Part shown: positions 16,725 through 62,448 of the stretch, one piece after another
Layout: each line of letters opens with the position of its first letter
Numbering within the stretch: position 1 is the first letter of the stretch
Assembly (NCBI GenBank): GCA_018902385.1
Contig: JABSSW010000009.1
Location: 186,001-250,000, forward strand
Direction: 5' to 3'
DNA from: Physcia stellaris
Lineage: Eukaryota > Ascomycota > Lecanoromycetes > Caliciales > Physciaceae
Length of the DNA stretch: 64,000 bases
The notes under the pieces: model-generated
What the model was told of the DNA's origin: nothing
Databases searched by the model: none
The model's input: the letters and a program-made list of their open reading frames with translations, nothing else
Translations under genes and position numbers: made by a program

Positions 16725-17797
16725 TCAATACACATGCGTCACCGCAACCCCATCATCCCCAACCTCTCTCCCACCAAAACTCACCGGCGGTCTGACTCCG
16801 CAGGCAGTCGTGACAACCTCCATCCCATGCGACATAACGCCCGCTCTCTCCTCATACTCCCACCGATCCGCCCTTGCCGCCCTAACCGACAAGTCCAGCA
16901 ACGACTCCGCCACGTTTCGCCACGGTAACGCTCCCCGATACTTGGTGATCGTAAGGTTGCATTCCAACATCGGATCAATGTCCGTCCGGAAATGCACGTC
17001 TCCTACAACGCCGGGGATCGTGTCAATCACGCGTGCGGTCGGAGCCCATTTGATGACGAACATCACCATCTTGAAAAGCACGTGGAGCCAGGCTCTTTCT
17101 CTCGTTGCTTTATCCGGGGGACGGAAAGGGGGTTGCTACTATTGCTGTTGCTGGTAACGACGGTGACGTTCTCGTCAGCAGTGGAGCTGAATTCAGGACC
17201 GGTGCTGTTCTTCGGGGACACCACGGCGCCCGCAAGGGGCTTGTTTTCCACATGTACAATGCCAAGGGGTAACCCAAGTGGTCGTGCGGCTGGTCCGCGC
17301 TTGTAAATACTGGCAGTGATCTCTCCGGGCCAGGGCTGCTGTTGCAGCACCCCCTTCATCATCCAGCAGTAGACGAGTCCAACCTTCAAAGGCGTGAGAG
17401 GTGTCGTTTCAGATAAGAGCGCGGGCTGAATGGTGTGTTGGATGCTCTCAAAGGGTCTGTTGCGAAAGGTGACTTTTTGCCGGAGTGGTGCGTTGTCGGT
17501 GTTCTTCCAGCTGATCATCATGTTTTCCAATATGCTGGTTATTAATTGCCCGCCCTTGGGTGGACCTGCGCCGATGCGGCCGTTGAGAAATCTCACTTCA
17601 AAATCGGTGGCCTGTCCCGGATCAAGCGGGAGCTCGAGATGTCCGACCGCAGGTCCTGATTCGTTTATTGGGGGTAGAAGCTCCGGCGGAAATCCCATTG
17701 ACTGACTGTCGGACGTAGAAGAAGCCCTCACATTTACTGGCAGCGTCATTACGCAGATGCCGAGGAGCACGATGAAGCGTAGCGCATTCCTGTACAT
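16725..17797 (-). CDS. Secreted hypothetical protein, probably interrupted by a one-base run error
   Basis: The ATG at 17797 gives MYRNALRFIVLLGICVMTLP, a clear signal peptide; an upstream in-frame codon at 17905 would bury it. The first part runs to about 17115 and contains FPPELLPPINESGPAVGHLE and an Asn/Ser-rich stretch. The second part (to 16725) reads AWLHVLFKMVMFVIKWAP, then VIDTIPGVVGDVHFRTDIDP. The two lie in frames one base apart with no plausible intron between. Adding one C to the C5 run (G5 on the + strand, 17116-17120) gives SVPPDKATRERAWLHVLFKM and a total of 357 aa. No family recognised; the well-behaved second half suggests a real fungal protein. Likely secreted or wall-associated. 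Confidence 0.6.
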
Positions 17798-18329
17798 TTT
17801 GTAGCGCCGTAGCCTTAGAAGCCTCTCACGTGGGGATTGAATATGTGCCTTCCTGGAAGAAGGGCAAAGCGCTTTACATATATGCGTGGTGGTCAAACAC
17901 GGCATCTTACGCGACGCGGATGACGGAAGCCACTTGACTAGGTAGCATGAAGACGGAGCATTCTTTCTAATATTTCCACTCGACGCGAATACTCTAAGCG
18001 ACGCATTTATTAGATTAAACCGTTGAGTTTAAAGAAAAATAAAATTGTTCAATCAACATTATATGACACACAGATACGTATTATTCAAAAAGATTTTAAA
18101 CAAATTATCAGGACAAAAAAGAGGGAAAAATCAGTCCGTCGCCCAAGAAGCATAGAAACGGTGAGCGGAGAAAAAAAGGGAAAGATCGTATGTGATATCG
18201 AAGAAAAGGCACAGAAAAAGAGAATGCAGAAAAACAGATGAGAGACTTGGGTCGACCTTATAAGTCCTCATCCATCTTCCGTAGCTTCGTCTCATTCCTG
18301 ATCCAGCCAGCCAACCACTTCCTGCGCGC
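17798..18329. other. AT-rich intergenic, about 0.5 kb
   Basis: 18020-18240 is A-rich on the + strand with many AAAAAG and GAAAAA runs. It separates the promoter of the secreted-protein gene from the 3' end of the PLP-fold gene. A short Lys-rich frame at 18023-18241 is a product of this composition, not a gene. Confidence 0.5.
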
Positions 18330-19922
18330 CTAGCCATCCTCTCGATCCCTCATCCGACAAACGTGTTCGTTCTCCTCACACTTCCCACAAAACCTCACAA
18401 CGCACAGCTGACAGCTTCTTATCCTCTCCTCCACCGCGTCCCCGCAACCCCCACAAAATCTCAATCTCAACCGCTGACTTCTCAGAAATGCAGACACTTG
18501 TTCCCGATGCGGGATGCTAGTTCGTCCGAATACCTTGGCCCGCAATTCTTCCTCCGAAGCCATGACTTCGTCCAAGACCGGCAGCCAACGAATATGTTCC
18601 TCAGCTTTGGCGCCCATGACCGGAGAGCTGAGACGCTTGACATCGCGGGGCTTGATGTAGATCAAGCTATGCAGACCCCCGATCTCTGCACGCCGAACCC
18701 CATCCGCGGCGAGGATGTCCCTTAGCAGTCTTCCGATTTGCTGCGCTCGTTGCGGCCATCGCTCCTTTCGCGCTAAGACCATCGTGCCCCAGGAAATCAA
18801 CAGGTCGGCAATCTGCGCCATCTCCGTTACGCGCTCTTGCCATTCGAGGATGGCTTGGGGACGATCCTTGATTCCCAGTTTCTGGATATTGATGCCGCGC
18901 CACTCGACCGCGATACCGTTCGTTCGGACCGCCTTGCCGAAGAGGACGAGGTCTGGGAAGCCGTGGGTGGAGTACTGCGGTAGTTGATAAGCGAAGGGAG
19001 CACCGCAACGTATGGCAGTCAATGCTTCGTCGACAATGAGTATCAAGTCGTGTTTATTACAAGCTGCCAATATACTCCCCCATACTCTCTCGTTGATGGG
19101 CTTGCCGTCCTCCGCGCGAACAATTTCAGCGATCAGGGCAACACAGCCATCATTTTTTGCTCTTTCGACTTGAGCGTCGATTCTGCGGGCGATGTCGGTC
19201 TTGATTATGAAAGGGCGCGGTCCATTCGCCAGGGGTCGTACGGTTCTTATGATTGCGTCATATGCGAGACACCCGTATCCGGCCCCGTAAGAGCCTTCAA
19301 GGATTGCGATTCGAGGATTCTCTTTAGCTTCGTCGCTGAAGAATTCAATTCCAGGGCCTTCGGAAGCATCTTCTTCGCTATGGTCTTCCGAGGGGTTTTC
19401 TTCGCTATGGCCTTCAAAAGCGTTTTCCTCGCTATGGCCGTCGGAAGCGTCTGCTTCGCTAGAAGATAACTTTTTTTCGTTTTTGGAAGCACAGACGAGG
19501 TGGGAGATCAGACTGGTCAACAGGGCGACGTTTGAAGCGTCACTTACATGACCGTGGAGACTGATTGGATCTGAGGTGAAGAACTGTCTGAATGCGCCGC
19601 GGTACCTTTCACCGATTCTGTGTGTCTGGTGTTGTAACAATGAAGGTGTTTCACTCAGTAAACCCCAATATTTGGCAATTTCCGCATTGACTGTTCTAGA
19701 TATGGGATTCTTTCGCGTCAGAAAGGAGCCAAAAGTATGGTGGAAGTCTAAATCGGGGTAATCTTCTGGATGCTCTGCTCTAGTTCTAATGTTGGGTGTG
19801 ACATCGAGTGGAGTGTTATCTTTTCGACCTTTGCGGCTCTTCTTCGGAGGATGTAGCGATCTTTTCGGCCTCGATGGGGTCTTTTGAATGGCTGCGGCCT
19901 TGCGGCTTCGGGTAACGGCCAT
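18330..19922 (-). CDS. PLP-dependent (class III aminotransferase-like) protein with C-terminal Cys cluster
   Basis: The ATG at 19922 (MAVTRSRKAAAIQ) gives 530 aa; the frame is open further upstream but that part looks like leader. The N-terminal 45 residues are Lys/Arg-rich and nuclear-signal-like. The fold is suggested by ILEGSYGAGYGCLAYDAI, by LILIVDEALTAIRCG (Asp about 298, the class III cofactor Asp) and by FPDLVLFGKAVRTNGIAVEW (Lys about 330, where the Schiff-base Lys sits). An acidic insert (about 158-190) carries three imperfect copies of GHSEENxxE. The last 45 residues hold CGGC, CQLC, CGKC and a final Cys, a probable zinc site that I do not know from classical aminotransferases. Reaction unknown. 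It neighbours the A-T-TE synthetase, transcribed the same way. Confidence 0.75.
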   Translation of the reverse strand: MAVTRSRKAAAIQKTPSRPKRSLHPPKKSRKGRKDNTPLDVTPNIRTRAEHPEDYPDLDFHHTFGSFLTRKNPISRTVNAEIAKYWGLLSETPSLLQHQTHRIGERYRGAFRQFFTSDPISLHGHVSDASNVALLTSLISHLVCASKNEKKLSSSEADASDGHSEENAFEGHSEENPSEDHSEEDASEGPGIEFFSDEAKENPRIAILEGSYGAGYGCLAYDAIIRTVRPLANGPRPFIIKTDIARRIDAQVERAKNDGCVALIAEIVRAEDGKPINERVWGSILAACNKHDLILIVDEALTAIRCGAPFAYQLPQYSTHGFPDLVLFGKAVRTNGIAVEWRGINIQKLGIKDRPQAILEWQERVTEMAQIADLLISWGTMVLARKERWPQRAQQIGRLLRDILAADGVRRAEIGGLHSLIYIKPRDVKRLSSPVMGAKAEEHIRWLPVLDEVMASEEELRAKVFGRTSIPHREQVSAFLRSQRLRLRFCGGCGDAVEERIRSCQLCVVRFCGKCEENEHVCRMRDREDG

Positions 19923-20044
19923 GCGCACTCTTTTCCTGTAACCTAGGCAAGATTTATGTTGAATTGGGGATTTGGATCGGAGTCTAAAACCCACAATGTG
20001 TCGATGGTTTTCCGCACAAAAATGGCGTGACCGCAATGATACGT

Positions 20045-20545
20045 TTACTGTGTCCTAAGTTCGAATTGAATTCTACTGGGAATGGAAAATATACCAGAAA
20101 GGTCGCTTTTGTAGATTTTCCGCATTTGGGCATAATGGAGACAAAGAAATGAAACCACGGATTCACAATTTTCTTTGTGTTGACCTACGGCTTCATCGCA
20201 ACATGCCATAGACTCAATGTCCGATACCCGAAGGGGGCATAGAGAGTGTGAATAAGAAGACAAAATGGAACTGATTGCAAGCAGTATTATGATATCCACA
20301 ATCAAAAGAAATTTCTGGAGAATAGGAGAAGCGGAATTTTTTGAAACCTCCTGTACCGCTCGGAGAATTTTGATTGTAGTTGTACCTTTCCCTTCTTTGA
20401 CTTTCCATAGTTTGCTGCTGAACCTGAAGTTCTTCCATGACAAACCAGGATCAGACCAGGCATCAAGCCTTGGGCAATAGGCCGAGGGTGCTAGATGAGT
20501 TTGCTCAAAGCAAAAGCAGTGCAAGGGAAATCTTGAAAGTGCCAT
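20045..20545 (-). CDS. Doubtful 166-codon reading frame with one hydrophobic segment
   Basis: An ATG at 20545 opens a frame with a hydrophobic stretch (FLLIVDIIILLAISSILSSY) and scattered Cys. I recognise no family. It sits just upstream of the PLP-fold gene, in what may be that gene's promoter. It could be a small membrane protein, an upstream exon, or chance. I record it because it is the longest frame in the 19.9-21.0 kb gap. Confidence 0.2.
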   Translation of the reverse strand: MALSRFPLHCFCFEQTHLAPSAYCPRLDAWSDPGLSWKNFRFSSKLWKVKEGKGTTTIKILRAVQEVSKNSASPILQKFLLIVDIIILLAISSILSSYSHSLCPLRVSDIESMACCDEAVGQHKENCESVVSFLCLHYAQMRKIYKSDLSGIFSIPSRIQFELRTQ

Positions 20546-21044
20546 ACTAGCAGAAGGAAAAAGACATTCTCCGAACACCGACCTGCCACGAAGCAATAAA
20601 GTATTTGAGAGTTACGGGTTTGTCTACGTGAGAAGGTGAGTCCTGATCGCTGAGGTGTGAAACTTTGATTACAATAGACGACAGGGCTACGCTAGCTGAG
20701 GCGCTAAGCGTTAGTGGCTTGGTATCAATTCTCCAGAGTCTTTCTTCCGCAGCACGCGTTTGTCAAAGAGAATGCGCGAAATAACGATCAACAACGCTTT
20801 TCCAGGAATCAACTGTGTTTCTTTAGCCACTGAATACTGTGTATCTGTATAAGCTATGAAATGTATCTATCTTGCTCTGCTCCTCTAACATCTATGCGAC
20901 GCCTCGCAAGCTACAGCATGACACAATGACCAGTAGAATATTCAATGTCCATATGCCACCCCATAATCATAAGATAAACAATAATAAAAGACACCAATCT
21001 TTGCCAAGTCGCTCTATGCTCTCAGTAGCCAATATTCCAGTAAC

Positions 21045-23807
21045 TCAGATCCCCCTAGCAGCAATAGCAGCCTTCAACTTCCTCTGAAAGCTCTGCACAT
21101 GCTCCTGCCCCATCATCGTATAATGCGCCCCATCCACATCATGGAACTTGGGCTCCGACCACGAGAAATCCCTCCACTTGATCAGTTTGTTGTCGATCCA
21201 GTCCTGTTTGTTCTTCGCCACGCCCGCCAACGGGATGGCCACAAAGACGTCGATACTCGCCACGACACCAGTGGGCTCGTAGTCAACAGCCAGATTCTGT
21301 AGTGCTGAAGCGACGGAAGCCCACTTCTCTAGCTTCGTCTGGTCGAGGCCGAGTTCGGCTAACCGCTTCGGCGGCGCGAGCTCGACGATGTAGTCAAGGA
21401 CTTGCTGCTTGCTGTACTGATGGAGCATAGGTCCGACTTTCACGGAATGCTCTTCGGTCATCAAGCCAAGGAAGTAGCTAAGATGGGAGACAACCTCGAT
21501 GAAGTCGAGCTGGCGCATACGATCTTTGATATGTGGAGGAAGGTTGAAGCTGCCAAAGAACTTGACCTCGTCGCCGTTCGCTTCCAGACGTTTGATGACT
21601 TCGAAAACGAGCATTGCCCCGAACGAGTACCCGGCGATGGCGTAGGGGCCTTTGGGTTGCGTGTATTTGATGTGCGTGTAGTAGGTATCGATGACTTCCT
21701 CAAGGGAGCCGAAGACTTCCTCTCCAGCGTTGAATCCACGAGCGCGAAGGGCATAGACGGGGCGATCCGTGAATGTTTTTGCTAGGTTGAGGAAGACGAG
21801 GATCTCGCCTACGCCGGGGTGAACGAGCCATAGGGGCGTCTTTCTACCAGAGGCTTGGAGAGGAACGACAGGGTTGTATTCGCCAGTTCCGCCTTCGAGG
21901 CCATCGAGAGCTGCGGCCATGGCACCCACCGATGGAGAAGTGAGAGCGAGTGAAAGGGAGATGGTCTCGGTCATGCCAAGCTTGTGCTGGAGTTGGTAGA
22001 GGAAGGAAATAAGGGCAACGGAGTCAATGCCCAGATCGAAGATGCTGGCCTCGAGACCGATTTCTAATGGGTCTTTGGAAAACATTTCAGAGATGAGTGC
22101 GGCGATAGTCTTTTCGGTAGGGGTGGTGGGTGCTTTGAACTGGGTCAGGCGGTAGTCACTGACAGCTTTTGCGTTCCTGAGGCGGAGATCAGCGAAGACG
22201 CCAGATTCGAAGTCGGCGCGGACTTTCGATCGGGAAATCTTGCCCAGAGAAGTTTTTGGCAGATTGTCTTTCTCTACGGCCAAAATCTCGTAAGGTCGAA
22301 CGCCACAAAGATTTACCGAGACTTCAGCTATTGCGTTGCTAGCCGCGGAGTAGGCCTCAATATCGGTATTGCTGAACGTAGGAAGATAAACCACGACAAT
22401 ACCTTCAGTGTGGGAGTCAGGCGCTCGGTAAGCGAAGACCACCGTACAAGAGGGAGCAACACCAGGAAATTGGGCCTCCTCGATAGCAGACTCGAGCTCA
22501 GCAGGGGAATATTTCACACCGTTGACAATGACTGTCTCTTTGTCACGGCCAACTAGGTTCAAGTGAGACTCAGCATCAATATAGGCTCTATCGCCAGTCC
22601 TGAACCAGCCATCTACGGTAAAGGCTTCTGCTGTCGCTTGCTCGTTATTGAAGTACTGCTTGAAGACAACTGGCCCCGTAAGCTGGAGCTCACCAATCTC
22701 TCCGGCACCGAGAGGCACATTGTCGGATCCTGCCACCCTCATCTCGATGCCAGACATTGGCGTGCCTAGCGATGCGAAGTCGAGAGCTTTCTTGAGATCG
22801 TACTCAGGGCAGTCCTTTGCATGAATCGAACCGGCACACGTCTCAGTCATGCCAAAGCCCGGGCTGAGGAAGCCAGCGGGAGCTTGATATTTTCGCATGA
22901 GCTCGGAAAAACGACGACAAGTTTCGGTGGGGTTGGCTTCACCGCCAGACAAGCAGACCTTGAGGCAACTCAAGTCATAGGCTTCAGAAACCTCAAGTTG
23001 AAGATTCTTGATCAGTGAAGCAATGAAGAAGTTAGGGGCAAAGGTATATGAAACGCGATGCTTGTTGATAAGCTGTAAGAATTTGAGAGGATCAATCAGG
23101 AGGTCTGTGGCTTGAACGTGAATCTGTTCAGCACCGAGGTATAGAGCCTGAAGGTGGATTTGGGAGAGAGCAGCAACGTGATCCATGCCGATCCAATTGA
23201 GGAAGACGTTCTTGCTGGTATTATCGTGGTGGAGGCTCTTTCCTTGCATTGCCGAGATCAGCTGGCCGTGGCGAAGACAGACAGCCTTAGCATTCCCGGT
23301 GCTTCCAGAGGTGAGCATGAGCACGGCTGTTTCGTCGGCATCCTTGAAAGCGCCAGTCTCGATACGTGTCGCGTTATGGGCTGCGATTATATCAAGCGAC
23401 TGAACGGTGGTCAGGGAAAGCTTGTCGGTTTCCAGGAAGTCAGGAACTAGATGGTCAGATGTAAGAACCACTGGACTTTTCAGAAGCCGGCGGAGATGGT
23501 TGAAATGTCTCTTGCGTCGCTCCAAGTCAGTCGTGAAAGGAGGTGACATAGCTGGGATAAAACCCGCGGCGATTGTTGCCCAGAACCATCTGATGCTGTC
23601 AATGTGCTTGTCGAAATGCAGGAGAACAATTGACTCATTGCTGATACCTGCGATCTGGGAAAGCTTTCGGGCATCTGACTCGGCAGTCTGCAACAGCTTG
23701 TTGTAGCTTAAGCGTGTGGCAGAGTCTTTCGCATCTGGAGGATAGACAGTAAGACCAGCACTTGTATTAGAGGCAACCTCAAGGAGCTGGAACAAATTCT
23801 GCTGCAT
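21045..23807 (-). CDS. NRPS-like A-T-TE synthetase (aryl-keto-acid type)
   Basis: Intronless, 920 aa from the ATG at 23807 (MQQNLFQLLEVA); an in-frame ATG at 23846 would add 13 residues. Adenylation domain, about 1-540: LMLTSGSTGNAKAV (164-176), GFGMTET (318-323), GWFRTGDRA (400-408), GRDKETVIVNGVKYSPAELE and NLPKTSLGKISRSK (A10 Lys about 523). Carrier domain: DLGIDSVAL with the phosphopantetheine Ser at about 596. Thioesterase: GYSFG with Ser 728 and a late GAHYTMMG with His 895. There is no condensation domain. This size and order match fungal enzymes making furanones, quinones or dioxolanones by joining two arylpyruvates (the TdiA/AtrA/MicA group). WIGMDHVAAL stands where amino-acid-activating domains keep the Asp that binds the amino group, fitting a keto-acid substrate. 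Product unknown. Confidence 0.93.
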   Translation of the reverse strand: MQQNLFQLLEVASNTSAGLTVYPPDAKDSATRLSYNKLLQTAESDARKLSQIAGISNESIVLLHFDKHIDSIRWFWATIAAGFIPAMSPPFTTDLERRKRHFNHLRRLLKSPVVLTSDHLVPDFLETDKLSLTTVQSLDIIAAHNATRIETGAFKDADETAVLMLTSGSTGNAKAVCLRHGQLISAMQGKSLHHDNTSKNVFLNWIGMDHVAALSQIHLQALYLGAEQIHVQATDLLIDPLKFLQLINKHRVSYTFAPNFFIASLIKNLQLEVSEAYDLSCLKVCLSGGEANPTETCRRFSELMRKYQAPAGFLSPGFGMTETCAGSIHAKDCPEYDLKKALDFASLGTPMSGIEMRVAGSDNVPLGAGEIGELQLTGPVVFKQYFNNEQATAEAFTVDGWFRTGDRAYIDAESHLNLVGRDKETVIVNGVKYSPAELESAIEEAQFPGVAPSCTVVFAYRAPDSHTEGIVVVYLPTFSNTDIEAYSAASNAIAEVSVNLCGVRPYEILAVEKDNLPKTSLGKISRSKVRADFESGVFADLRLRNAKAVSDYRLTQFKAPTTPTEKTIAALISEMFSKDPLEIGLEASIFDLGIDSVALISFLYQLQHKLGMTETISLSLALTSPSVGAMAAALDGLEGGTGEYNPVVPLQASGRKTPLWLVHPGVGEILVFLNLAKTFTDRPVYALRARGFNAGEEVFGSLEEVIDTYYTHIKYTQPKGPYAIAGYSFGAMLVFEVIKRLEANGDEVKFFGSFNLPPHIKDRMRQLDFIEVVSHLSYFLGLMTEEHSVKVGPMLHQYSKQQVLDYIVELAPPKRLAELGLDQTKLEKWASVASALQNLAVDYEPTGVVASIDVFVAIPLAGVAKNKQDWIDNKLIKWRDFSWSEPKFHDVDGAHYTMMGQEHVQSFQRKLKAAIAARGI

Positions 23808-23949
23808 CCTCACCAATTTTAGAAGAAATGGAGAGAGTATTGACAACTTTCCGTTTGGTCAGATACCGTCAATGTCTGAGGTGGTCTCTGATCAGCTCGT
23901 TTGGAAGGGAAAAGAATGAGCCTGAGCCCTTGTAGAAACTGCCACACCT

Positions 23950-23958
23950 CTTTATATA
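23950..23958 (-). promoter_or_regulatory. TATA box of the A-T-TE gene
   Basis: On the minus strand this reads ATATATAAA, about 145 bp upstream of the ATG at 23807. Position and sequence fit a TATA element of a regulated gene. Confidence 0.5.
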
Positions 23959-26606: not shown

Positions 26607-29600
26607 TCAATACGGAGGTCTGCCAGAGCTTGCAATCCGACTACCGCGTTCCCCAGCACCACTCATACCATCGATGCTTCCAAGCAAAGCCTCCACGTCA
26701 ATCCCTTTCTTCTTTCTCCTCCTCCTTGCACTGCCGGCTTGCTCGGAAGTTACATCGGACACCATGGTACTGGGCGTACCGCTGTTCGTAGTTTGCGCTG
26801 GAATTTGTGCGCTGATCCCTACGTTCTTTTGCAGACTGACACTAGCTGGCAAAGGTGGAACAGGTGGTACTTCATCCCCCATCTCCCCGGGACTCCCTGG
26901 CACAGCGATAGGCGGGACCAGGTCGCCTCTTAGTGCTTTTGCGTTGCTGATGGGGTCCTCACCTGCTGAGCTGGAGGACGAGGGCGGTCGAAGAGCGGAG
27001 CGGGGTCGGCCTGTAAACGAATTGCTGCGAGGGGTTTGGGGGCGCGAAAGGGGGGGTGGTGGTGTAGTAGGTGTCTTGGGCGGTGTCCGATCTCGCGAGG
27101 CGGGTATACTACCACGAGGAATAGTCTTAATCGCAGTGGGGGCTACCCTACTGGCGGGAAGTTTTGACGGCTTTTTCATACCCGAGTTGACACTTGATAC
27201 TGGATTCGATGCTACAGGCGGTAAAGGTCGGGAGAGTTCCCCATCGCTTGTGGACTCGAAGTCTCCAGCAGTGGCAATGCTGTCACTACCAGTGGATATA
27301 CTACCTCGATGATAAGGAGCCACGGCTGTATCTCGATCGGCCGTGCTATGGCGAAGTGGGCTTGCTCCCCGAGAGCTGAAGACGCGACCGCCAGCCAACA
27401 CCCTTTTGAGGTCTTCGACGCGAAGTGTAGGATTCTGGTCGGAGCTGCTGACAGGAGTAGGTGAGCCTTCATCCTGGCCGCTGGGTTGACGTTTGAGAGG
27501 GTTGAGATTCGATGGGTCATTTGGATGGCCAGGAGGGGAAGCGTGTCGAGAACCGTTCATGTGTATCGGGGAATTAGCTCGTGCTGGTTGACCCTCTGGA
27601 GCAAGGAAGTTGCGTGTGGAAAGGTTTGTCCCTGTCCTGGAGCCACTCAAGGAAACAGTACGCGCGCTTTCTTTCTCGACTGTCGCAATACATGCTTCTT
27701 TGGTCCAATCTGAAAGCATGGCTTCCTTGATTGTGTTTGGCAGCTCTTTATCGACCTTCGGAGACTGAGGCATGGCCGATAGGATAGGCAGACTAAAGAC
27801 TCGCCCAGGCGAGCTTGGAGGGCTCGTTGGAGGAGTTGCAATAGATGCGGTGTATGCTTCTGCAATTTGCTCCACAAGAGCTTCTCGAGAATCAAATGGC
27901 TTCAAAGATTCCCGCTGAACCACTGGCAGCGGCAGCCTGTCCCTGAGCGGTATCGAAACTGACATGGTTTGGTCAAGCGGCAATGGTGGGAGGCGGATAG
28001 TCTCAAGCCATAACCTATGGCTTTTCCTTCTCGTGATCTCATTATGGATCGCACGGCCAACTCTCGTATTGTCAATCTCGAACTTCTCGGTTAGCGCCCA
28101 AAGATACCCGTGCACAAGGCTACCTATGTTTGATTTTGCGGTCGGCGTCGAAAAGACCTTGTCTAAATTGATGTCTTCCTGTAACCGAAACATCATAGGG
28201 AGTCCAGTCTTAGCCGCGTTAACACCGAGTTTCTCGATGAGGTTAACCAGAACAAGGTGCATCAAAAGTAAGTCGGACTCGGATTCTGGGGCTTCAACCG
28301 CATTGTCATAGATTGCAAGATGCAACAACTGTAGAAATGTCGATCTGGCAGGCTTTGCAGTCTTCTCTCGATGAGACGCGTTGGAAACAGCTCGTCGGCT
28401 GAGATTGCCAGTACCGCCGGTGTTAAGATCCTGTCTAGATGATCTTTTCAATAATTCTCGCTTATCTTCCATAACCCGAAGATCCCCCGACTCATTTCGA
28501 GTCTTAGCCACGTCAGAAGAGCATCGGCGTATGCTCTCCTGACCCTTCGGTCGTCGTCACGTATAAGCCACTGTGTGCCTTCCCAGACGTGAATACCTAC
28601 GCGATTGCGTCCACTTGCTGCAGCACCACTCACTGAGCCTTGCATGTTGGCTACTGTAAGTACCCCCTTTATAGCTCTGAGCGCTGTGACTCTAGCAGTA
28701 CCAAAGGAAAAGAACTCGTCCGTGTTGGGATTTTCCTGAAGGTTTACTGACGCCGATATAGCTTTGGCCGCTGCCTGTGGGTGCTCGATTGCTGCAGCTT
28801 CCGAGCTCACTGCCGATGCCGCAGAGGGCTTAAGACGAAGTAAGATAGCGGAGATGATGTCTGACACCTGATCAGAATAATAGATATGTGTCGCTAAGTC
28901 TCCAATGCACCCTTGCAATTTAGTGAGCAGCTCTTGGCGATTACTTGATGGAGACTGCTCCTCAACCGCATTTTCGGTCGATGAGGGTGCATTTATCAGA
29001 CCTTCAGTGTCCCGGAATAGGTCGATGGCTTCAGTCTGCTGATGATGTGGTAAGACGTCCGATCCTTTGCCGCCAAGCTGAAGGACAAGAAGAATGTGTT
29101 GAACAAGACCGAGCAATACGTCTATTATGCTGAGACCGATAAGATTAATGTCAGAGCGCAGTAACCAGCCGACCAATCCTACCAGCACCAATTGCTGTTC
29201 AAGATTTTCTTCGGTTATAGGGCTCCTGATCAGTGTTTCCATGACCGTAACAAGCATCACAAAGCGATCTTGCACAGGCGCCCATCTTGTCACCAGCTCC
29301 ATGACAGTTGTGTGCCAGGACCGAGCGTGAGCAGACCCAGGTCTTTGTGTGGTAGTCCGATGCTTTGACGCGTTTGCACATATGTATCGTAGCATCGCGG
29401 ATGTTGCCAAACGAATTTGTAGACGGTTGTTGGCCAGAAATATCTGCTTCAGACTTCTCAATGCGTGCATTCCCGCCTCTTCTTCCGCTAGACGATCGGC
29501 GTCATCTGTGCTTGCAGACATTGCGGCAGTCTCCGGGTCTGGATTAGCGTCGACTGTCTGGACCGTAGATACGCTCATCCTTCTCTTGAGTGCCAGCTCT

Positions 29601-30384
29601 CTGTCCGTGTCCGCCATGCTCTCAATCCGGCGGTATAGCATCCTAAGGTAGGCTTCGTCGTCTGGGTGTAGATTTTGCAGAATGATAGGGATGACAACAT
29701 GAAGCTGTCTTCCGCCATCAGCACCCACAGCTTCAGAGGATGTGATAGCTTTGATGGCTTTGAGGCCAACACTACGCCAACGGATTGCCAAGTGAGCGCT
29801 CAATACGCCCTTGACCTTCGGAGGTGATTGTCGATTCGCAAAGTCAGCGTAGGTCCGGACTATCTCCTCATACTGGCCAATGTGTGCCTGATCAGCTGCG
29901 AGCGTAGCCACGTCATGGTGTGCGCAAAAGGCCTCGAAGGTTGGTATTGAGTCCTCGACAGTTGTCAGGTCCTGAGAGCGCAGAACGTTGCCGAGTATAC
30001 GAAGAATGAAGGGTGCGTAAAGGGGGAGGTCTCGAGGAAGTTTCTCAATGAGAGCTTTGAGAATCTGAAGGGTGACCTGTACATTGCTGTCATTTGGTCA
30101 GCTGAGATTCAATGCACAAATATAGAAGTTGAGATATCCTTGAAATGGATATCCACCTCCGTGGCATACCCAATCTTGTTCCTCCAAAGATCGCTTGCTG
30201 TCCGCTTCTCAAGGAAGGCTCCAACTTTCTGGAGCTTGCTCCGCCGGGTGCTCGCGTAGTAGAGCAAGTAGCTCAGCTCGCTTGAGTTAGGCTTCACATC
30301 TTGAACGTTCTTTTGGTATTTGGGATAGCATTTCAGGATAAGGACTTGATGTTTCGCCAGAAATGACTGCCTTACGGCATGCAT
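26607..30384 (-). CDS. EFR3: EFR3, plasma-membrane anchor of the PI4-kinase complex
   Basis: Exon 1 is 30384-30170, the intron 30169-30087 (83 bp) and exon 2 30086-26607; the junction reads WRNKIG-NVQVTLQILKALI. The N-terminus (KHQVLILKCYPKYQ, then SSELSYLLYYASTRRSKLQK) is diagnostic of Efr3, which holds the Stt4 phosphatidylinositol 4-kinase at the plasma membrane with Ypp1; Cys 19 lies where metazoan homologues are lipidated. Armadillo-like helices fill the first two thirds, and the C-terminal third is disordered Ser/Pro-rich. The frame breaks once: YADALLTWLRLEM in one frame, DLRVMEDKRELLKR in the next. One extra G in the G5 run (C5 at 28484-28488) restores MSRGDLRVMEDK and a 1231-aa protein. 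Conservation on both sides argues for a sequence error. Confidence 0.92.
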
Positions 30385-31075: not shown

Positions 31076-32878
<1,803 letters not shown>

Positions 32879-36139: not shown

Positions 36140-36374
36140 TGCAGTTCGCGGCGATTTGTTTCTGAGGAAGATGATGAACCTCTGAGATTGTACTCCGTAC
36201 CTCGGTATGAAAACATCAGTCTAAATTAGCGCTGTATTTCTCATACCAAGCACGTGCCTTGCCGAGCCGAGATGCAGCCATTTCACGTGACAATTGGAGA
36301 CATTTGAACTTTGAAAGTTGCTTCTCAGGAGATGATCTGTGAGATGGTGCTAGCTCATTCAAAGACCTTTCCAT

Positions 36375-41930: not shown

Positions 41931-44656
41931 TCACGTCGGCTCGGACCAATCCACCTGCTCCGTAACCAGTGCCCCTCCGTCCTTTGAGTAAGACACTTTT
42001 AACCGTAATCGTAGCTTAGGTGGTAACGCCTGCAACATCACTCTGTCAGCACGTTTTCTCAACCACCACTACTACTCAAGGAAGGCAAAGTTGATACTCA
42101 CCCCGGTAACGCCGGCCACCTTCATCCCCTGTGTCGCTTCCTCCCCACCATCCAGTTCACTCCTACTTATCGCCTGCAATTGCAGCTTTTGGCTTTTAGG
42201 CACCGCGGCCTGTAAGCCTACGCCTGTGAATCTGTCAAAGTTGCTCTCGTTCCGGAATCGCGCGAGGATCTGGGCGTTGCCGGCGTTGCGTTGCACGGAC
42301 AGGGTGAGAAGCAGGCCCTCTTTATTGTATGCGGTGTGGGCTTGTGAAGATGGCTGTGATGGGGAAGGAGATGAGAGCCCGCCGAGGAGGTCCGCCGAGG
42401 GTTGTGGGGAGGGATTTCCGTTGGGGGCACCGTTGGAAGAGAAGAGGTCCATGATGGAGGAGGTGTTGTTGGTGGGTTGTGGGGAGGGAACAGGGGCTGT
42501 AGAGGCAGAGGTGCCACCGCCCAGGATGTCAGCTAGGAGGTCTGCGTTGTTCTGGTTGCCATTCATAGTGGCGCTCATGTCGACGGCGGGGAGATCTGAG
42601 CCACCCATCAAGTCAAGCAACATGTCTTGCTCGGTCTGCTTGCTGGGCTTCTTCGCTTTTGCGGCAGCTTTCTTCTGCTTGGGCGTCGCTTCACCTAAGA
42701 CGCGTTGCTCTTCCCGGATCTCAGGTGGTGGCATCCGCTCCAGAACACCTCGTCGAATCTCGTCATAGCTGAAAAGATTACCGTACTCGACGGCCCGTTG
42801 CTGGATCTCTATACTTAGATCTGCAGTTCGTTGGGACAGGAGACGACGTATTCGGTCGACTTGTGCTGGATCATTGAGGCGAGCGGTGAGCTTCATGGCT
42901 GAGGTGACGATATACTCTGTTACGGTGTGTGAGGCGTAGCTACTATTCAAGATAGTCGTGAATAGATCAACAATATCCTTTTCGTTGACCGGCTGGACCA
43001 ATTCTTCTTCTTCGTACTGACCCCCCGTAAGAGGGCGTCGCCGTACTCTCCAATGACCCAGGTGCCTGCTAAGGTCAAAGCTTCTTGAGTGATATCGTCT
43101 TTCAGGCCTGCGTAGAGCTTCTGCACAGAGTATGTCTGTAGCTCCGGGGTAGTTGCAATCAGGCGAACGAAGGATGACAGAATCTGCTCTTTGACATAGT
43201 TGCCAGCTAGCTTCAGTACTCTCAGCATAGTGTCCACATGCCATCTTTTATTAGGAGCAAAACGATCCGCCGCAACGCCAATCTGGCTGGTCATAATTGG
43301 CTTGAACTCAGTGTCGGCCACTTCCAAGAACGCGAGTAGCTCTCTGATCAGAACCCGAACATTGCCTTCATTGATTAGAGTGAAACTCAAATCCAATGCC
43401 CTCCTCCTAATGCTGATATCAGGATCCCGAAGGCATTCCAAGATCGTGTTTCTATGTCTCTGCACGGCATTCGGTTCCACAGCCACGACCTTGATCAAAG
43501 TGTTGAGAGCGACGTATCGTATATTATTATCTTTGTTTGTAAGAAATTTGCCCAGGATGTTGACTCCAAGCACACGTAGACCTGAATCGGCTTCAATGTC
43601 AAGTATCGTCAGGACTGATTCGTAAAGTATTGAGTTTCCAACGTTCTTAGAAGAATCAGTATTCGTGGCGACTTGAGCAAGAATGTCGTTGATTTGCTCG
43701 CTGGTACGTGCATCGCCTCGGCCCAATACCCGAAGCAATCTGAGTAGCTTGACCTGAAGGAACGGATCTGTGATACCAGTAACATCATGCTCTGGTGCAT
43801 ACCCTGAGCTTGCCAGCCCTTTCAGCGTTCGGACGAGTCCAGGCACAAGCGGTCGAAATAATTCACTGATATCCTCTCCCCCTTCCAGCTCTTCTGCCTC
43901 GCACATACCGGTGACAAGGGTAAGCCCACAAAGTAGTACACCATGGTTCCGATCCGAGAGTAATATCTTCGCTTTTTCCAGGAAATGTTCCTGAAGATCT
44001 GGCACCTTCCTACATATTCTCATGGCGCATAGCGCAGCTTTCCGCCGTATATATGGATTTGCCGTCGACAGTAGATTCTCAATCTCAGGAAACAGGTCTC
44101 TTGACATCTCGATCGAGGCAATGTTGCCAAGTGTGCAAAGAGCGAGGCCAACGACATATTGATTGGAGTGGTTCAAATCACTGCGCCTTTGGGTCAGCAC
44201 CGTCCCTCTCACATATCAACGGACCTACTTCTTCAATGAATTTGTGACCAGTGTCAAAACCTCTTGATTTTCATCCAGCAGCAGCATTGTCCCCAGGTAA
44301 CCCAATCTCTTGTCCGCAAACCGCGGAGACGCCAATAGCTTCAGACATTCTATTTGACCAAAATGTGTTCGTTCACCCAAGGTAAACAGGTAGAGTAGTT
44401 TGGCAACATTGTTTCTCCTGTCCGTACATCAGCCCAGTTGTCGATCGAGTCCACAGCCATGAGGCGGACCTGATGTTAGCGTCACCGCTCTCCTCCCTGA
44501 AGCTTGCTCTTATCGCCGCGCTTTCTTTTTGTACGACCGCCCGCTCATCAGCAATGGTTTTTGAAGCCCGTACACTACGTATGAATTGCTTCACTGGTTC
44601 TCCATCAGCAGTTGCCGTTTCAAGACTGTGGGGAGGGCAGATTTACAAGAGCTCAT
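41931..44656 (-). CDS. AP-1 clathrin adaptor complex, gamma subunit
   Basis: Exons: 44656-44647 (10 bp, MSS plus one base), 44593-44470, 44417-44229, 44180-42102 and 42029-41931; introns 53, 52, 48 and 72 bp. The product is 833 aa. [20 protein letters not shown] and [20 protein letters not shown] mark gamma-adaptin, the large subunit that binds clathrin and cargo at the trans-Golgi and endosomes. The hinge carries [10 protein letters not shown] and Asn/Pro/Ser repeats; the C-terminal ear ends [17 protein letters not shown]...VDWSEPT. The frame breaks once: [10 protein letters not shown] in one frame, [20 protein letters not shown] in the next. One extra G in the G6 run (C6 at 43021-43026) gives [12 protein letters not shown] and a whole protein. 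No intron fits. Confidence 0.93.
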
Positions 44657-54735: not shown

Positions 54736-56914
54736 TCAACGCCCCTCGAAAGGACTTGTCGTCAACAATGTCGGGTTCTCTTCCAACGCAATGGCATCTA
54801 GGTGTTCGGGATCTGCGCCTTTCAGAAGGAGCAGCCTTTTCACTTTCAACGAGCCGTTGTACGATGCCCAGTGTAAAAGCGTCCACCTATCATCATCAAC
54901 ATCCTCCGCCCCGTAGATAGGGTGAGCTCCTTCCGCTTCTTCGTTGTCATTAGGGGTCGTGTCCCAGAAGAAATCCTTGTCGCCTTTTAGATCCACATCT
55001 CGGCCTGTTTCGGCAAGAGCCTCCATGAACATCTGGTATCGGTTGGGTCCGACGTAGAAGGCGACATCAATAGGGGTCAATTCCCTGTAAGACAGTTCCG
55101 GATCTTCTGGCAGCGGTGCGGGGTGCGATAATTGGTTGACATCGACACCATTCTGCAAGACCATCTTCATAACGCGAGAAGCACCGAAATAGATACAGCA
55201 ATGCAAGAGGGTCCACCCATCACCGTCGAGAGATTCATAGACATCATTTCCTGAGTGACGAACGATTGTCTCGAACGTCTCGACATTGTCGTGTGAGGCT
55301 GCAAAGAACAGCGCAGTCCAGCCGTACCATTCTGCTCTCAAATCAAGCGATGCTCCCAGCCGCAAGAACGCCTCGACGTCTTCAGGTGTACCGATAGCGG
55401 CCGCTCGGTGAAAAGCTGACCAACCCTGCTGTCGCAGGCATTGACTTCGGAGAATTCGCTTGTGAGACAGAGACGCATAAAATCCACCGACTTCTCCAAG
55501 GGTCTATCGACAGTCCACAGGTAGGAGAGTACCGAGTAACCGTCGCTGTCAACGTGCTCGATGTCCGCCCCTCGAGTTAGGAGAAGTCGAGCGATGTCAA
55601 AGTGTCCTCGAAGGAAACAAGACTGCAAAGCCGTCCTGTGATGCCGCCCATCAACCTCGGCTTCTATGCTGTGACAGGCAAAAGATCTGCTGTCGGACTT
55701 TACTCACATGTTATGCTCTCCATACGCCATGTCGGGATGAGCTCCATATTCGAGGAGTAAGCGGACGAGCCTGGCCGACCCACTCTCGATAGCATACTGA
55801 TCGAATCATTAGCAACGATATTTCGATACGAATGGACTCTGCACTGACATCAAGCATTGGCCAACCTGCAGGTGTGATATCACTGCCATGTGCCGCGCCA
55901 CTTGCCAATAGTTTATGGGCGCCGTCGAAGTCGCCCGCTCTACAAGCAACAGTCATTGCAGAGTCGATGGGTACCATATTGCGAACCTGAAACATAGGGC
56001 TGAAGGAGAAGCTCGGACAGGACATTTGTAGTTTGATTGAGTATAACTTCCCAAACAGTGCTATCCGTACAGCGGCTTCATAGCTCATGCCTTTGTCTTT
56101 GGGCAATGCGAATATTTGCGCCGAGAATCCTTGTTGGTCGAATCGAGCTATCCATGGAAGTAATTTGGTTGGCTTGGATATTATCTGGCTTGACTGGTAT
56201 GCCCCTATTTTGCTTTCCAAAGGTTGGGGCTGAGCGACCGGAGGCGACGGTTCTGAGCTGTGCTGGCTGAATACTGCCATATTAAAAAATTCTGGGTTGA
56301 GATCCCGCCACATCCAATGTCATGCGAGGTTTGTTGCTGCTGGAGAAGCATCCCGTATATCACATGACTGACTCGCCTAGGATTGATGAGCGCAGACACT
56401 TGCCAGGAAGAATGTTATGAGCCCCAACGTAGCTCTAAATATTGCATAGAACTTACAATTGTTCCATCGTCACAATGCCTTGCAGCGTGCTTTCGGCAGA
56501 TCTTAGTCGCTCCTGTAATTGTGCGAAAGTATTTTTGTCCTTCATTGCCCATCTCACTTTACTCCTCCATGTATGCGGCTTGGAACGCAGAGGAAACGAC
56601 CCATCTATGGTGGAGAGGAGCTCATGAGCGGTGCACATCGCCTTTGCGAACGAAGCCTTTTCCAAGACGAGGTGACTGCTTTCGGTAGCGCAACTAAAAC
56701 CATGGTGTGTCTTACGAGGCGTGGGATAATTGGTCGCTCCTCTTGACTCCAATGCCCGTATTTCCTCCTGAAGAAGCAGCGAGTGCTGCCGAGCGATGTC
56801 CAAGTGCGTGTCTGCGAGTTTATAGTCCTCTTTGAATCGAGATATGGCGCAGCTTATTTTGGTCACGGCATCTAAGATGCCAACGACGCCTGCCGTTATC
56901 GAAAGAGGGTCCAT
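54736..56914 (-). CDS. Ankyrin-repeat protein with fungal N-terminal helical domain
   Basis: Probable exons: 56914-56457, 56266-55849 (acceptor uncertain), 55796-55708 and 55635-54736, giving 621 aa after one correction. The N-terminus MDPLSITAGVVGILDAVTKI is the standard opening of the fungal N-terminal domain found in STAND-type and ankyrin proteins, followed by a coiled helix (QHSLLLQEEIRALESR). Ankyrin repeats follow: YAIESGSARLVRLLLEYGA, TALQSCFLRGHFDIARLLLT, GWTALFFAASHDNVETFETI, DGWTLLHCCIYFGASRVMKM and DDRWTLLHWASYNGSLKVKR. There is no NACHT or NB-ARC domain between. The frame breaks at FSEVNACDSR / GWSAFHRAAAIGT; one extra G in the G3 run (C3 at 55424-55426) restores it. Partner and role unknown; such proteins often act in non-self recognition. 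Confidence 0.75.
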
Positions 56915-57709
56915 CACTAGTCGATGGAAAAGAGGAAGATCAAAAAACGGCTACAGGGAGCGATGAGCAGCCATGTGCTCACTGGGGTCCTTTTCCAGAC
57001 CGACTAGCATATGAACGCTGCAAATATCGGTTTTCAAAAGATGCCAGTACTACAGTGTTAGTGACTTTGTCGTGGTAATGCTAGGCTTTTTGCTTTTCGG
57101 CCTACGTGAGCAATACGCGCGAAATGGTCCGTAGAGAAATGGTCATGACCCGGAGGCGAGTGGACTTATCCTTTGAAATACCGTTACTTCGAAGCCTGCA
57201 TTCACCAGGAGACTCAGTCTTGTCCATCTTCTAACGATTTAGCCGCCCAGCTTCTTCACTAATTTAGGTGAAGGTTGCAGTCCCGCATTTATGGCCCCCA
57301 CATTGGGAAGATCCCACCACGAACCTTGGACGATCCACTGCCCCAGAAACAGGGATGATACACTTCCGAAACCTGTCGAAAAGGCATTGACAAAGGCTCA
57401 GGGAATGACAATTATTAGATATGTCAATTATCGTGTTTGACATATTTGACATCTAAGCTTAGCGGAATTTGGCGCCTACAGTAAGGGACGCTATTGGCTG
57501 CTTACTCGCCTCCTCTTTCCCTCGCGGGTCGTCTCTCCATGAGCTGGCTGAATAGGTAGTAAGGCTAGATTTTCTACTTCATGATCGTATCGCTAGCCCC
57601 ATGCTATGACTTCTTTCCTTTGCACCAAGGCAGGACGTCCAGGAGTAGGTGATGAGTGACTTCGTGGAGCCATAAGCCTAGCATGCTTGTAGGTGTCTCC
57701 GATAGCGGC
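56915..57709. other. Intergenic, about 0.8 kb
   Basis: Promoter of the ankyrin gene and 3' flank of the amine-oxidase relic. AT-rich around 57390-57460, with TTATTAGATATG...GACATATTTGACATCT repeats of ATATG/GACAT. No gene. Confidence 0.4.
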
Positions 57710-59286
57710 TCATATGTTTATGGTGACTCCATGACAGCGCGAGATTCTTCTTGCGACTTCTTCACCGCTCCAGTAAGCACCAGTGACAGTACCCAGTCCG
57801 CCGGGTGGAGATGTATGCTCACCAGCAAGCCAGATGCCACGAGCCTCACCCATTCCCTCCCTCAAAGCCTCAAAGTGCTGAAGGCAATCTCCAGAACCAA
57901 TTGGCAAGTTGGTAAAAGACCCAAAGCCTGCGAACTTGTCGCTTTGCCAGTCTGTCGACATGAACGCCAGGGGCTTACAGGTAGAAGAGGCGGGATCGAA
58001 GTTAGGAGTCTGGAATAATATGGTCGCAAATTCTCGTCTAGAATCCGATAATACTCTTGAGAGTCATCTGCCATGCCTTTAACAAGCCCAGTAATATGCC
58101 TTCGCCATTGGCCGGAGACGAAAAATATAATCACCGGATGGGAGAAGGGCTCCAGCATTCCCGAGAAAGATATGATTTGATGCCGCTAGTTTTCTGGATT
58201 TGTATCTGCTGCATACGTACTCGGGACGAAGAAAAAGAGATTCGATAGACGAAGCCCTCCAGATGTATGTTCTTGATGGCCAATTGGTGTGGAGACATGG
58301 GCGTTCCAGATTGCATGTGGAGACTTGATGAACATCTTGTCCCAGGTTTCCATATCCAAGACTGCGGAGCGCGGTTGATAGCTTTGGCGTTAGTCGCGAC
58401 GAGAAAACATTCTCGTTGCGTTTTCAGCCAGCCTGTCACCACTACATCATCGAAAATACCCCGGAATCCATCAGCGGCTTCGACATCGAAGCCATCGGGC
58501 TCCCTGGAAGTTACCTTTGTGACCTCACGGGCTAATCGTAGAGTAACATGGTTCGACAAGATGAATGAAAAGGCTGTCACAATGTCTTTGCAAATGAACG
58601 CAAGGGATACTAAGTTGTCTGCACGGTGATTTAGCGCCATATGTCTTTGGCTAAGTGAGAGGACGACGAGATCGACTATACCTCCTTCCAAGCCCGCGTC
58701 CAGCCACAAATGCTTCAACCCTTGGGTTTCGCACTCATTACCCATGAAAGCGCCCCACATTTCGACAATCTGAGACATCAAAGTCTCGTAAGCCTCCGGT
58801 TGTTCGGCTTGCGAGCGTCTCCTTTCGACCTCTTGACGGAAGAAGGTCATCATCTTGACAGTGTCTGAAATGGACGTGTTTTCTGTGCGACTCTTAGCTA
58901 TGGCCATATCCAGGATCTCCCAGACTTCCTCGTAGTAATTCCCTGCCACAGTACCTACTGGGAAGCCAAGTCCCGTTCGAATTGCAGATCGAGTCAACAG
59001 CGCCGCATGCAATATGATCGTTGATCCCGCCTCCATTGCGAGATGTAGAAGTGAGTTACACCATGTTCCATAGATTCAGCTAGCGGCTACGTCCATTGGA
59101 GGACCGAAGCGAGTACTCTGATGGATGCGGCCACCAACACGATATCGGGCCTCGAGGATTATGACCTCCAAGCCTGCCGCAGTCAGCAGTTTCGCCGGCT
59201 CGAAGCCCGCTTATACCAGCTCCGATGATGCATATCTTGCTCGACCGGCCTTTGAGACTCGGATGCACATCGAGGATCTCCTTCAA
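57710..59286 (-). pseudogene. Decayed flavin-dependent amine oxidase
   Basis: Homology runs over the whole length of a flavin monoamine oxidase: dinucleotide fold ICIIGAGISGLRA, then LLTAAGLEVIILEAR and VGGRIHQSTRFGPPMDVAAS, a middle region (EVTKVTSREPD...FDDVVVT), then TYAADTNPEN, HITGLVKGMADDSQEYYRIL, and the C-terminal FAD site GIWLAGEHTSPPGGLGTVTGAYWSGEEVA. The pieces are in different frames. Two Trp codons conserved in the family are stops (TGA at 59076-59078, where AASW is expected; TAG at 58186-58188, where PENW is expected), and at least three one-base frame changes occur (near GLRAGE, in the middle, and at 58005). No start ATG fits. Enzymes of this family oxidise amines with FAD. The Trp-to-stop changes are all G-to-A on the coding strand, like repeat-induced or other C-to-T decay. 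Confidence 0.8.
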
Positions 59287-59293
59287 CTTGCAT

Positions 59294-59981
59294 GATTCGT
59301 TGAAAATGAATGCAGCTTAATTGTGACAACCTTGAGAGTAAATGAGTAAATGCTCAGCGCGCTGCTTGCAAGCGGCTGATTCTACACCATATAAACTTCC
59401 AAAAAGCCTCGATGATTACCTTCGGCATAACTTGCATCGCAATAGACAACCCGAACAGGAAGTTCGTTGCGATCACAGCCGAGTATCTGGGGGCGAAGGC
59501 GAACCCCGATAAGCTTTTACAATGGCGATGGAGTTTGTGCTCGCTCATGTAGTCTCCCAATACTAGTGATAGAGCAGTATCGCATGTAGTTCATCGTTGT
59601 TGTGGAATGGTGTTGAACTTGAAGGGTAAAATGTCACAGAAATGAGCTTCCAATGGGCGAGCGTTTATGTAATCCAGAATTACGTCTTGGCAATACGCGC
59701 GCTAGAGCTGACAAATACGAGATTAATGCCGCCTTTTTTCAGAATTATTGGACTTCGAGTCGTCAGTCGTGGCTTATCTAATGACAACTTAAGGTTTTCC
59801 GTCTCATAATTTCACTGATTTATAAGGGCTATGTAGTGGCGCAAAATTGCCTGGCAGCTTTACTCTCGAAGACGCAATGACTTACAGTACGAGTAACTTT
59901 CTACCTACTCCGTAGATTATTCTTTATCGGCCAGAGTCTGCCGCTATCCACCCCAGCCAACCATCAGCGCCTGCCAAGTAC
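59294..59981. other. Intergenic, about 0.7 kb
   Basis: Upstream flank of the decayed oxidase and promoter of the GNAT gene. A 68-codon minus frame at 59354-59560 shows no family. AT-rich near 59730-59830. Confidence 0.4.
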
Positions 59982-60563
59982 ATGCTCGGAATGAAGGTGG
60001 CAACTACCGAAGATTCGGCGAAAAGCTCCGCCAAGACCAAGGTAGCCTGGCGCTCTATGTCAATCGATAATATTTTTCGCCTCGTTGCCGTTGCCAATAC
60101 AATCCACCCGGACCTCCCCGAAAGTGACCAAGTCTTCGCCGAGCGCGTCAAGCTCTTCCCTTCAGGCTGCCTCGCTCTCATGTCCGGAGAAAGCGACGAG
60201 CTCTACGGCTACGTCATCTCTCATCCCATCCGCCACCGCCAACCGCCAGCTCTCAACAGTTTGCTCGGCGAGATAGCGCCTGATGCGGACCAGTACTATA
60301 TCCATGATCTCGTTCTCCTCCCTGAGGTAAGAGGGCGGGGGTTTGCGCAAGAGTGCATCGGTAGGCTCTTTGCTGTCGCTGAAAGATGCGGGTATGCTAC
60401 GACTTGCCTCGTTTCTGTGTACGGGACGGCGCCCTTCTGGGGCCAGTTTGGGTTCGTCGAGCCAGAAGAGATGGACGAGGGGTTGGAGAGGAAGGTAAGG
60501 GGTTATGGGGATGATGCTACATACCTTGAGTGTGTGAACGGCTCCAGAATGAGGGAGAAGTGA
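59982..60563 (+). CDS. GNAT-family N-acetyltransferase
   Basis: Intronless, 193 aa, start MLGMKVATTEDSAKSS. After a 22-residue leader the GNAT fold begins (AWRSMSIDNIFRLVAVANTI). Motif A, which holds acetyl-CoA, is YIHDLVLLPEVRGRGFAQE with the RGRG turn at about 117-120, followed by FAVAERCGYATTCLVSVYGT and FWGQFGFVEPEE, the usual end of the fold. These enzymes move an acetyl group from acetyl-CoA to an amine; substrate here is unknown. Cytosolic by appearance. It looks intact, and no operon-like neighbour gives a clue. Confidence 0.85.
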   Translation: MLGMKVATTEDSAKSSAKTKVAWRSMSIDNIFRLVAVANTIHPDLPESDQVFAERVKLFPSGCLALMSGESDELYGYVISHPIRHRQPPALNSLLGEIAPDADQYYIHDLVLLPEVRGRGFAQECIGRLFAVAERCGYATTCLVSVYGTAPFWGQFGFVEPEEMDEGLERKVRGYGDDATYLECVNGSRMREK

Positions 60564-61291
60564 TTGACTGATCTGGGGATGATGGGGCCGGCGGTGACTT
60601 GATCCTCGTCTGCCAGGTAGATAACGATGATTGGAAGAGGAACCTCTAACCGATTTTGTGGGTGGTAGCTATACATGGGATCTGTTTTCTAGCGTTCTCA
60701 GACACCACTTACCTGGTACCTAGCCAAACATCGTGAAGGCGTTTGCGCCAGCAGGTTTGGGAAAGTATTGGAAATAGTAAGCAACAAGGAACATTTCTGG
60801 AATTCATCGATACGCCTCGCGACTTCGCTGGAGGCTGCATTCTCGACGCTGCAGATGAGCGTTACAGAGCGCCATACTGGGAAGAGTTTTTCTCTGATGT
60901 TGTTTGTGGTGGATGACAGACATCCATATCAAAACTGAGATAAGTTTCTAAGACGTCCATCGAAGCAGATTCGAGCTTGATTACGCTGCAGGGGTGATTC
61001 TGCTTCGAAGTCAAGGTACCTTAGCGTTGCATCATGCACAGGGCTGCGCCATGGCCAAGCCCCGCCGTACTGAGTGCAGCCTTGTTCTCCTCGGTCGGAA
61101 AACCTTCACAATCTTTGATTTAGAAATAGGCTTTCCCAGATTCCACGCAGTAAGCGCGGTAGAAATTGACTACATGCCTTCAACGAGCAAATCTTGCATG
61201 TAATAGTAGATCAAGAACAGCCTTGTCAGAAATCAGACGATTTCGAAAGGAACAGATCTTCGCGGTGGCAAATGTGTTGAGGGGTTGAATC
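60564..61291. other. Intergenic, about 0.7 kb
   Basis: Between two plus-strand genes. A frame at 60994-61203 has no recognisable content. It may contain an upstream exon of the next gene, but I cannot support one. Confidence 0.35.
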
Positions 61292-62448
61292 ATGTCAAAG
61301 AGAAGACTCTGGCTTCCCGGTTATGTTCCTGGTCAATTCTTTCTTGATCTCAAAGAATTACAATATAGAGTGCTAATTGGTCTTTTAGCGTCCCTCGAAA
61401 GCAATGAACAGCCGCGCTCTAAACGACGAAAACAGTGGCTTCTCAGTCTAGCTCAAATCAAGTTCCAGATCGAGTTTGAAGCTCTTCAGCTCTGTGGATA
61501 CCCGCATACAACAGGTTCGGGCTCGATACCTTTTCGCGAACTGTATCCGTGGGGCAGAGGGGAGGGTTTCATAGCTGGTCGCAGAGTCTCGAGGAACGCT
61601 CTGTGCAAAGTAATCCAGTTGCTGAGGCTGAGGTATGGACGTACATTATTGACCTACGAGGCCTACCTGGCTGGAGAATTGCTCGCGATTACTGCGGTGA
61701 GGCAAGGGGACTGGGCGAAGGTGTCGATTCCCAGGTTCAAACACAGAGGGTTATGAGTTCGAGCTTCGTTTACTTGGGTATCCAGCTTCTAGAAACTGTG
61801 GTTTCCGGACATGTTGATGATCTGAGCACAATGCACCAGATCATAGATGCTATCGATCTACAATTGAGCTTACTCGGTTCCTTTGGCGAGATCTATCACC
61901 GGCATATATCGGAAAGCGGAAAAATCGTCTATGACGATTTTACCTGGCATACTGACCTTCGAGGTCGACTTCGTGATGTTTTCAAACAAGAGGAGGCCCG
62001 AAAAGCTAGCGGGAATATTAAATCTACAAGATCGGCATCACAGCGTCAACAAGACAATCTCCTACTGCAGGCACTTCTCGGAGCTCTCCTTTTGGCATGC
62101 ATCTACCCTCTCTATCGAGCACTGAAATCTTCATCGCCAACACCGGGCTCTCATTTGGACGCCGATTTCTGGCAACTGATTCTAAATGTCATTCTCCAGC
62201 TTGCTGGTTTCTTGACCCTGCTGCTACCCATTTACCGAGAGACAATAGCCAAGGAATGGGTGGGAACCTGGATCCTGTCGATTCTGGGAATTTTGTCGGC
62301 TCTTGTCACGGTACCGCTCTACCTCTTGGCTCCTATATCGTGGAGCACATTCTTCTCCTGGCTGGGTGCGTCGTCCCAATTGCTGGTCGTGCTACAGGTT
62401 GCCCTGGTGGCTACTTTTCGAGATGGGGAGCACGTCAAGCAGGCGTGA
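61292..62448 (+). CDS. Membrane protein of unknown function, probably one-base error
   Basis: The ATG at 61292 (MSKRRLWLPGYVPGQFFLDL) opens a frame that reads well to AGELLAITAVRQGDW (about 61710). The adjoining frame then continues SSSFVYLGIQLLETVVSGHV, EIYHRHISESGKIVYDDFTW and three or four membrane helices (LLLQALLGALLLACIYPLYR; LILNVILQLAGFLTLLLPIY; WILSILGILSALVTVPLYLL; ASSQLLVVLQVALVATF). One extra G in G4 (61706-61709) or G3 (61713-61715) joins the two into 385 aa. No intron fits. The soluble N-terminal half is helical and Lys/Arg/Leu-rich. Family not recognised. The N-terminus may be incomplete if an upstream exon exists. Confidence 0.6.

Follow-up and report, generated by a model that had tools for sequence, protein, structure and literature searches.

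In programmed -1 ribosomal frameshifting, translation continues past the switch in the -1 frame. Homopolymer under-calling, a sequencing error, is commonest in long runs. In the description of Polypolish, homopolymer-length errors are named as the most common residual errors of long-read sequence (PMC8812927). For the lichen-forming ascomycete Physcia stellaris, the genome publication reports an assembly of 46.57 Mb in 184 scaffolds, which was derived from nanopore R9.4.1 reads (31.16x) called with Guppy 3.0.3, assembled by Canu, scaffolded by SSPACE-LongRead and polished twice with Racon and then twice with Pilon using MiSeq reads at a depth of 30.25x (SD 37.36x); genes were predicted by Augustus with Aspergillus nidulans training and BUSCO was 95.6% (PMC7513301). 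The combination of R9.4.1 and Guppy 3.0.3 is the nanopore origin expected if homopolymers have been under-called.

The window studied here is a stretch of 64,000 nucleotides (C9:186001-250000) that forms part of a 912,417-base contig; DNA searches covered 43.97 Mb in 147 contigs of the assembly. Five genes in the window, encoding a secreted protein, EFR3, the gamma subunit of AP-1, an ankyrin protein and a membrane protein, are each present as two overlapping open frames on the same strand, each with coherent text, and the sense of the shift is identical in all five: one base is short (Table 1). This agrees with what had been proposed from the letters of the window alone (hereafter the sequence-only reading), namely that five genes each lack one base in the same direction. 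On the comparisons presented below, the five switches are, with high confidence, to be regarded as nanopore homopolymer under-calls that survived the polishing of the assembly. Relatives or paralogues are continuous at all five places and the recipe of R9.4.1 reads, Racon and Pilon fits, which supports the same explanation as offered by the sequence-only reading. The frame switches are thus very probably real in the sequence file and not in the organism, where the genes are most likely intact and where the strain's own DNA would carry the extra base.

Table 1. Frame switches and reading frames of the five genes (positions in the window)
Feature	Position	Strand	Context and basis
Secreted protein, frame-switch interval	17109-17119	-	C5 then GG on the coding strand; scan on two paralogues
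EFR3, frame-switch interval	28483-28491	-	around G5 on the coding strand; placement scan, 40 of 120 relatives
EFR3, open frames	28451-30097 and 26610-28556	-	overlap 28451-28556
AP-1 gamma, frame-switch interval	43020-43026	-	G6 on the coding strand; placement scan, 58 of 120 relatives
AP-1 gamma, open frames	42950-44215 and 42075-43247	-	overlap 42950-43247
Ankyrin protein, frame-switch interval	55423-55439	-	17 bases, only a G3 inside; 11 paralogous repeats scanned
Ankyrin protein, open frames	55341-55703 and 54739-55503	-	
Membrane protein, frame-switch interval	61563-61571	+	AGGGTTTCA; four-relative alignment and placement scan
Membrane protein, gene	61292-62448	+	

Protein-database searches covered AP-1 gamma, EFR3 and the membrane protein, and all three are intact in relatives. 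For the secreted and the ankyrin protein, continuity is seen in paralogues only, and these two are the weakest of the five because the database searches went to the other three. When scored against relatives (four for AP-1 gamma, three for EFR3 and four for the membrane protein), the unchanged sequences reached 291.0, 303.3 and 187.5, respectively, removal of two bases gave 530.5, 562.3 and 370.2, and addition of one base gave 546.5, 576.3 and 385.8. The order was the same in all three cases, as expected for genes that are exactly one base short. DNA searches found a single place in the assembly for each of these three genes, which is evidence against an unpolished duplicate.

The EFR3 switch is crossed without a gap by 120 of 120 relatives (the best 120 of 1,123), counted pair by pair, and the residue at the position of the missing base is the same in 119 of the 120 relatives listed. 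One near-identical and intact EFR3, P0138, sits on a separate 14,847-base contig and aligns with the window's protein over 1133 residues free of gaps, of which 1126 are identical when the residue spanning the missing base is scored as a difference. A decoy intron, 28539-28600 on the minus strand, lies beside the switch and combines a good donor (GTAGGT) with a CAG end; a gene predictor could hide the frame error of EFR3 behind it.

For AP-1 gamma, the Adaptin_N profile stops at position 446 in one frame and restarts at 446 in the other. The switch is crossed ungapped by 119 of 120 relatives (the best 120 of 2,479), and the lone exception among those listed, P0001, is the assembly's own deposited protein, which matches the first AP-1 gamma piece at 100% over 95%. 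At the frame switch, P0001 (window 42072-44215) carries 12 aberrant residues instead of 28 conserved ones. The model deposited for AP-1 gamma in this assembly is wrong, apparently because the frame error was bypassed with a false intron.

The sequence-only reading had assigned the switch in the membrane protein to 61706 or 61713. In an alignment with four relatives (358-384 aa, 66-75% identity), the downstream frame is in use from about 61570, and over residues 60-170 a base inserted at 61567 scored 357.2 against P0121-P0124, as compared with 148.8 and 143.0 for the two places originally suggested. The placement scan thereby rules out 61706-61715 on the plus strand and moves the switch to an interval some 140 bases upstream. 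It is crossed without a gap by 15 of 16 relatives, i.e., the 17 found minus the window's own protein. As the interval reads AGGGTTTCA, either a G or a T could have been lost. The length of 385 aa claimed for the repaired protein was reproduced, as was that of 357 aa for the secreted protein, with the stop excluded in both cases.

The coding region of the secreted protein was taken as 16725-17797. Its paralogue L029 (C61:61584-62618) aligns through the switch with 142 identities in 332 positions, and the more distant paralogue L030 (C9:7921-8748) likewise reads through. The match on C61 holds two TAG codons, and the L029 copy may therefore have an intron or be broken. Paralogues of the ankyrin protein in the same genome run through the switch region in one frame, and once a base is added every ankyrin repeat, inspected by eye, opens with a glycine-aromatic pair. 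The Ank_2 profile gave 96.4 bits for the read-through sequence and 85.8 and 20.7 bits for the two pieces; since the read-through value lies below their sum, this case is not decided by Pfam.

According to the sequence-only reading the same kind of base, in a G/C run, was lost each time. This applies securely to three of the five intervals (AP-1 gamma, EFR3 and the secreted protein), which contain a G/C run of at least five bases, but not to the other two: the missing base of the membrane protein can be G or T, and the ankyrin interval offers only a G3. In these two intervals the longest runs comprise only three bases and neither switch is fixed to one base. The sites originally named for AP-1 gamma, EFR3 and the secreted protein were confirmed, that of the ankyrin protein only to within its 17-base interval. 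A random interval of 7 to 11 bases, drawn from a coding mask of about 30 kb delineated by the analyst, meets a G/C run of at least five bases with P = 0.017 to 0.022; with an assumed, not computed, chance of 0.03 for the 17-base ankyrin interval, the probability that at least three of five intervals do so by chance is 9.4e-5, a figure that speaks for a link to runs and not for a rate because the five sites were picked as seen. Homopolymer spectra compared within the same assembly, which by themselves neither support nor refute under-calling, showed no deficit of G/C runs of at least five bases in the window relative to the loci L001-L017, the five-base class amounting to 104.7 and 65.9 runs per 100 kb, respectively. 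Two loci outside that set are A+T-rich, with a G+C content of 0.247 for L018 (C9:500001-510000) and 0.368 for L019 (C10:100001-110000), the other loci ranging from 0.46 to 0.52.

Replication slips at G/C runs too, and Pilon left the five sites unchanged with MiSeq reads at about 30x, while the near-identical EFR3 proves only that another sample is intact. These points would be accommodated if the sequenced culture had truly suffered five one-base deletions and the genes were broken in the strain. We consider this improbable: the five genes lie on one stretch of 45 kb, two of them (AP-1 gamma and EFR3) are conserved throughout the relatives listed, and the frames are open on both sides of the switches with no decay beside them. 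Continuity in relatives and absence of decay likewise bear out the view of the sequence-only reading that true frameshifts in essential genes are unlikely.

A second possibility is that short introns lie at the switch sites and that the frames are joined by splicing. A home-made codon/intron/frameshift model, which was run on the window and on the loci L001-L020, drew introns in EFR3 (28539-28600, with the donor GTAGGT) and in the ankyrin gene (55429-55487), and the protein deposited for AP-1 gamma likewise leaves the switch out. However, such introns would delete residues that are kept by relatives (120 of 120 for EFR3, 119 of 120 of those listed for AP-1 gamma), and the intron in the ankyrin gene, with the poor donor GTGGAT, would by eye cost one repeat roughly half of its length (some 20 of 39 residues). 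A genuine intron would remove a stretch that is absent from the proteins of relatives; here, the stretch is retained, and conserved residues abut on both sides and leave no space for an intron. Splicing at these places is therefore very improbable.

Joining of the frames in vivo, by programmed -1 frameshifting or by RNA editing, would suit the identical sense of all five switches and the presence, at some sites, of runs that allow ribosome slippage, but it is hardly conceivable given that the genes are unrelated, that no slippery motif common to the five intervals is seen by eye, and that relatives, the near-identical EFR3 included, encode the region in a single frame, the listed relatives being discontinuous at the switch in 0 of 120 cases for EFR3 and in 1 of 120 for AP-1 gamma; a version in which the sequenced runs have their correct length and this one species recodes AP-1 gamma, EFR3 and the others, by slipping back one base or by editing the transcript, is just as hard to credit.

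The preferred explanation, residual under-calling, would proceed in three steps. Homopolymers commonly come out too short in reads of the R9.4.1 type. The Canu/Racon consensus would have retained such calls, and Pilon, run twice on uneven MiSeq coverage of about 30x, would have corrected only part of them. Such uneven coverage may be why polishing failed at the five sites. Against under-calling, Illumina polishing should have cleared most such errors, the intervals of the ankyrin and the membrane protein are devoid of long runs, long G/C runs show no depletion in the window relative to L001-L017, and the kinase survey described below gave no convincing case.

With regard to error density, five switches within the coding mask of about 30 kb correspond to one per 6 kb. 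The term systematic, as used in the sequence-only reading, is not borne out as a genome-wide rate, as 74.5 kb of kinase-domain DNA (74,523 aligned bases in 139 matches) contained no convincing frameshift. This survey was incomplete, 124 of 199 candidates having been scored, and 31 neighbouring pairs were comparable. The single frameshift-like pair among these 31 was discarded, its DNA reading as a short intron in what is presumably the casein kinase 2 alpha gene. Hence, either the window is unusually dense in errors for this assembly or the survey has the lower sensitivity; among the genes of the window compared with Pfam profiles, AP-1 gamma alone would show by the method used for the kinases. 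By eye, no frameshift-like pair was apparent among the scored matches to MFS (9 of 342), AMP-binding (14 of 113), p450 (92 of 248) and ABC_tran (19 of 90), which are too few for a rate and biased to intact genes. AMP-binding domains at C18:555521-572307 and C32:482052-483140 lie within open frames of 2,000, 4,855 and 3,617 codons, and the assembly therefore contains long stretches without frame errors. A local pocket of poor polishing in the window is possible.

Among the other frames of the window, no further clear frameshift was found in Pfam matches, nor in one frame compared with PDB. They include an unbroken frame of 937 aa (21045-23858, minus strand) with AMP-binding, phosphopantetheine and thioesterase domains, i.e., an NRPS-like enzyme, and a frame of 574 aa (18330-20054, minus strand) of which only the central part resembles class III aminotransferases, and weakly. 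Of the five switches, the home-made model at its normal penalty recovered those of the secreted protein and AP-1 gamma; it resorted to the introns for EFR3 and the ankyrin gene, missed the membrane protein, and produced a candidate extra base at 2581 and a candidate missing base at 12174; in L001-L020 it made two candidate calls, one missing base and one extra. At a relaxed penalty, missing and extra bases were both called in large numbers but on slender support, and the gain for AP-1 gamma, a case that homology makes certain, was no more than 3.6 units. In view of these weak calls in two senses and this small gain, the model was judged unfit as an estimator of the error rate.

The five switches would thus represent an ordinary artefact that adds no biology, and their value lies in caution. 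Further genes of the assembly may be truncated or spliced around errors, and the published BUSCO value of 95.6% is compatible with such errors (PMC7513301). None of the titles and abstract openings listed for P. stellaris (12, and the top 10 of 493) concerned frame errors in the assembly. The P. stellaris genome should be re-polished before it enters studies of selection, pseudogene counts or gene loss in lichen fungi.

When compared with described systems, the situation most resembles the residual homopolymer errors of nanopore assemblies as presented for Polypolish, in which single-base errors of run length likewise outlast assembly and break frames; it differs in that the present case concerns a eukaryote with introns whose sequence had already been polished twice with short reads, and in that, at two of the five sites, the run is short or loosely placed (PMC8812927). 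The gene-fragmenting errors addressed by Kastor are similar insofar as they are spotted by comparing fragments with intact relatives; Kastor, as described, is intended for small genomes, whereas here a gene predictor can mask the error by a false intron, as exemplified by AP-1 gamma (PMC12007338). With programmed -1 frameshifting the five genes share the -1 position of the downstream frame, but their relatives possess one continuous frame and a conserved signal is absent.
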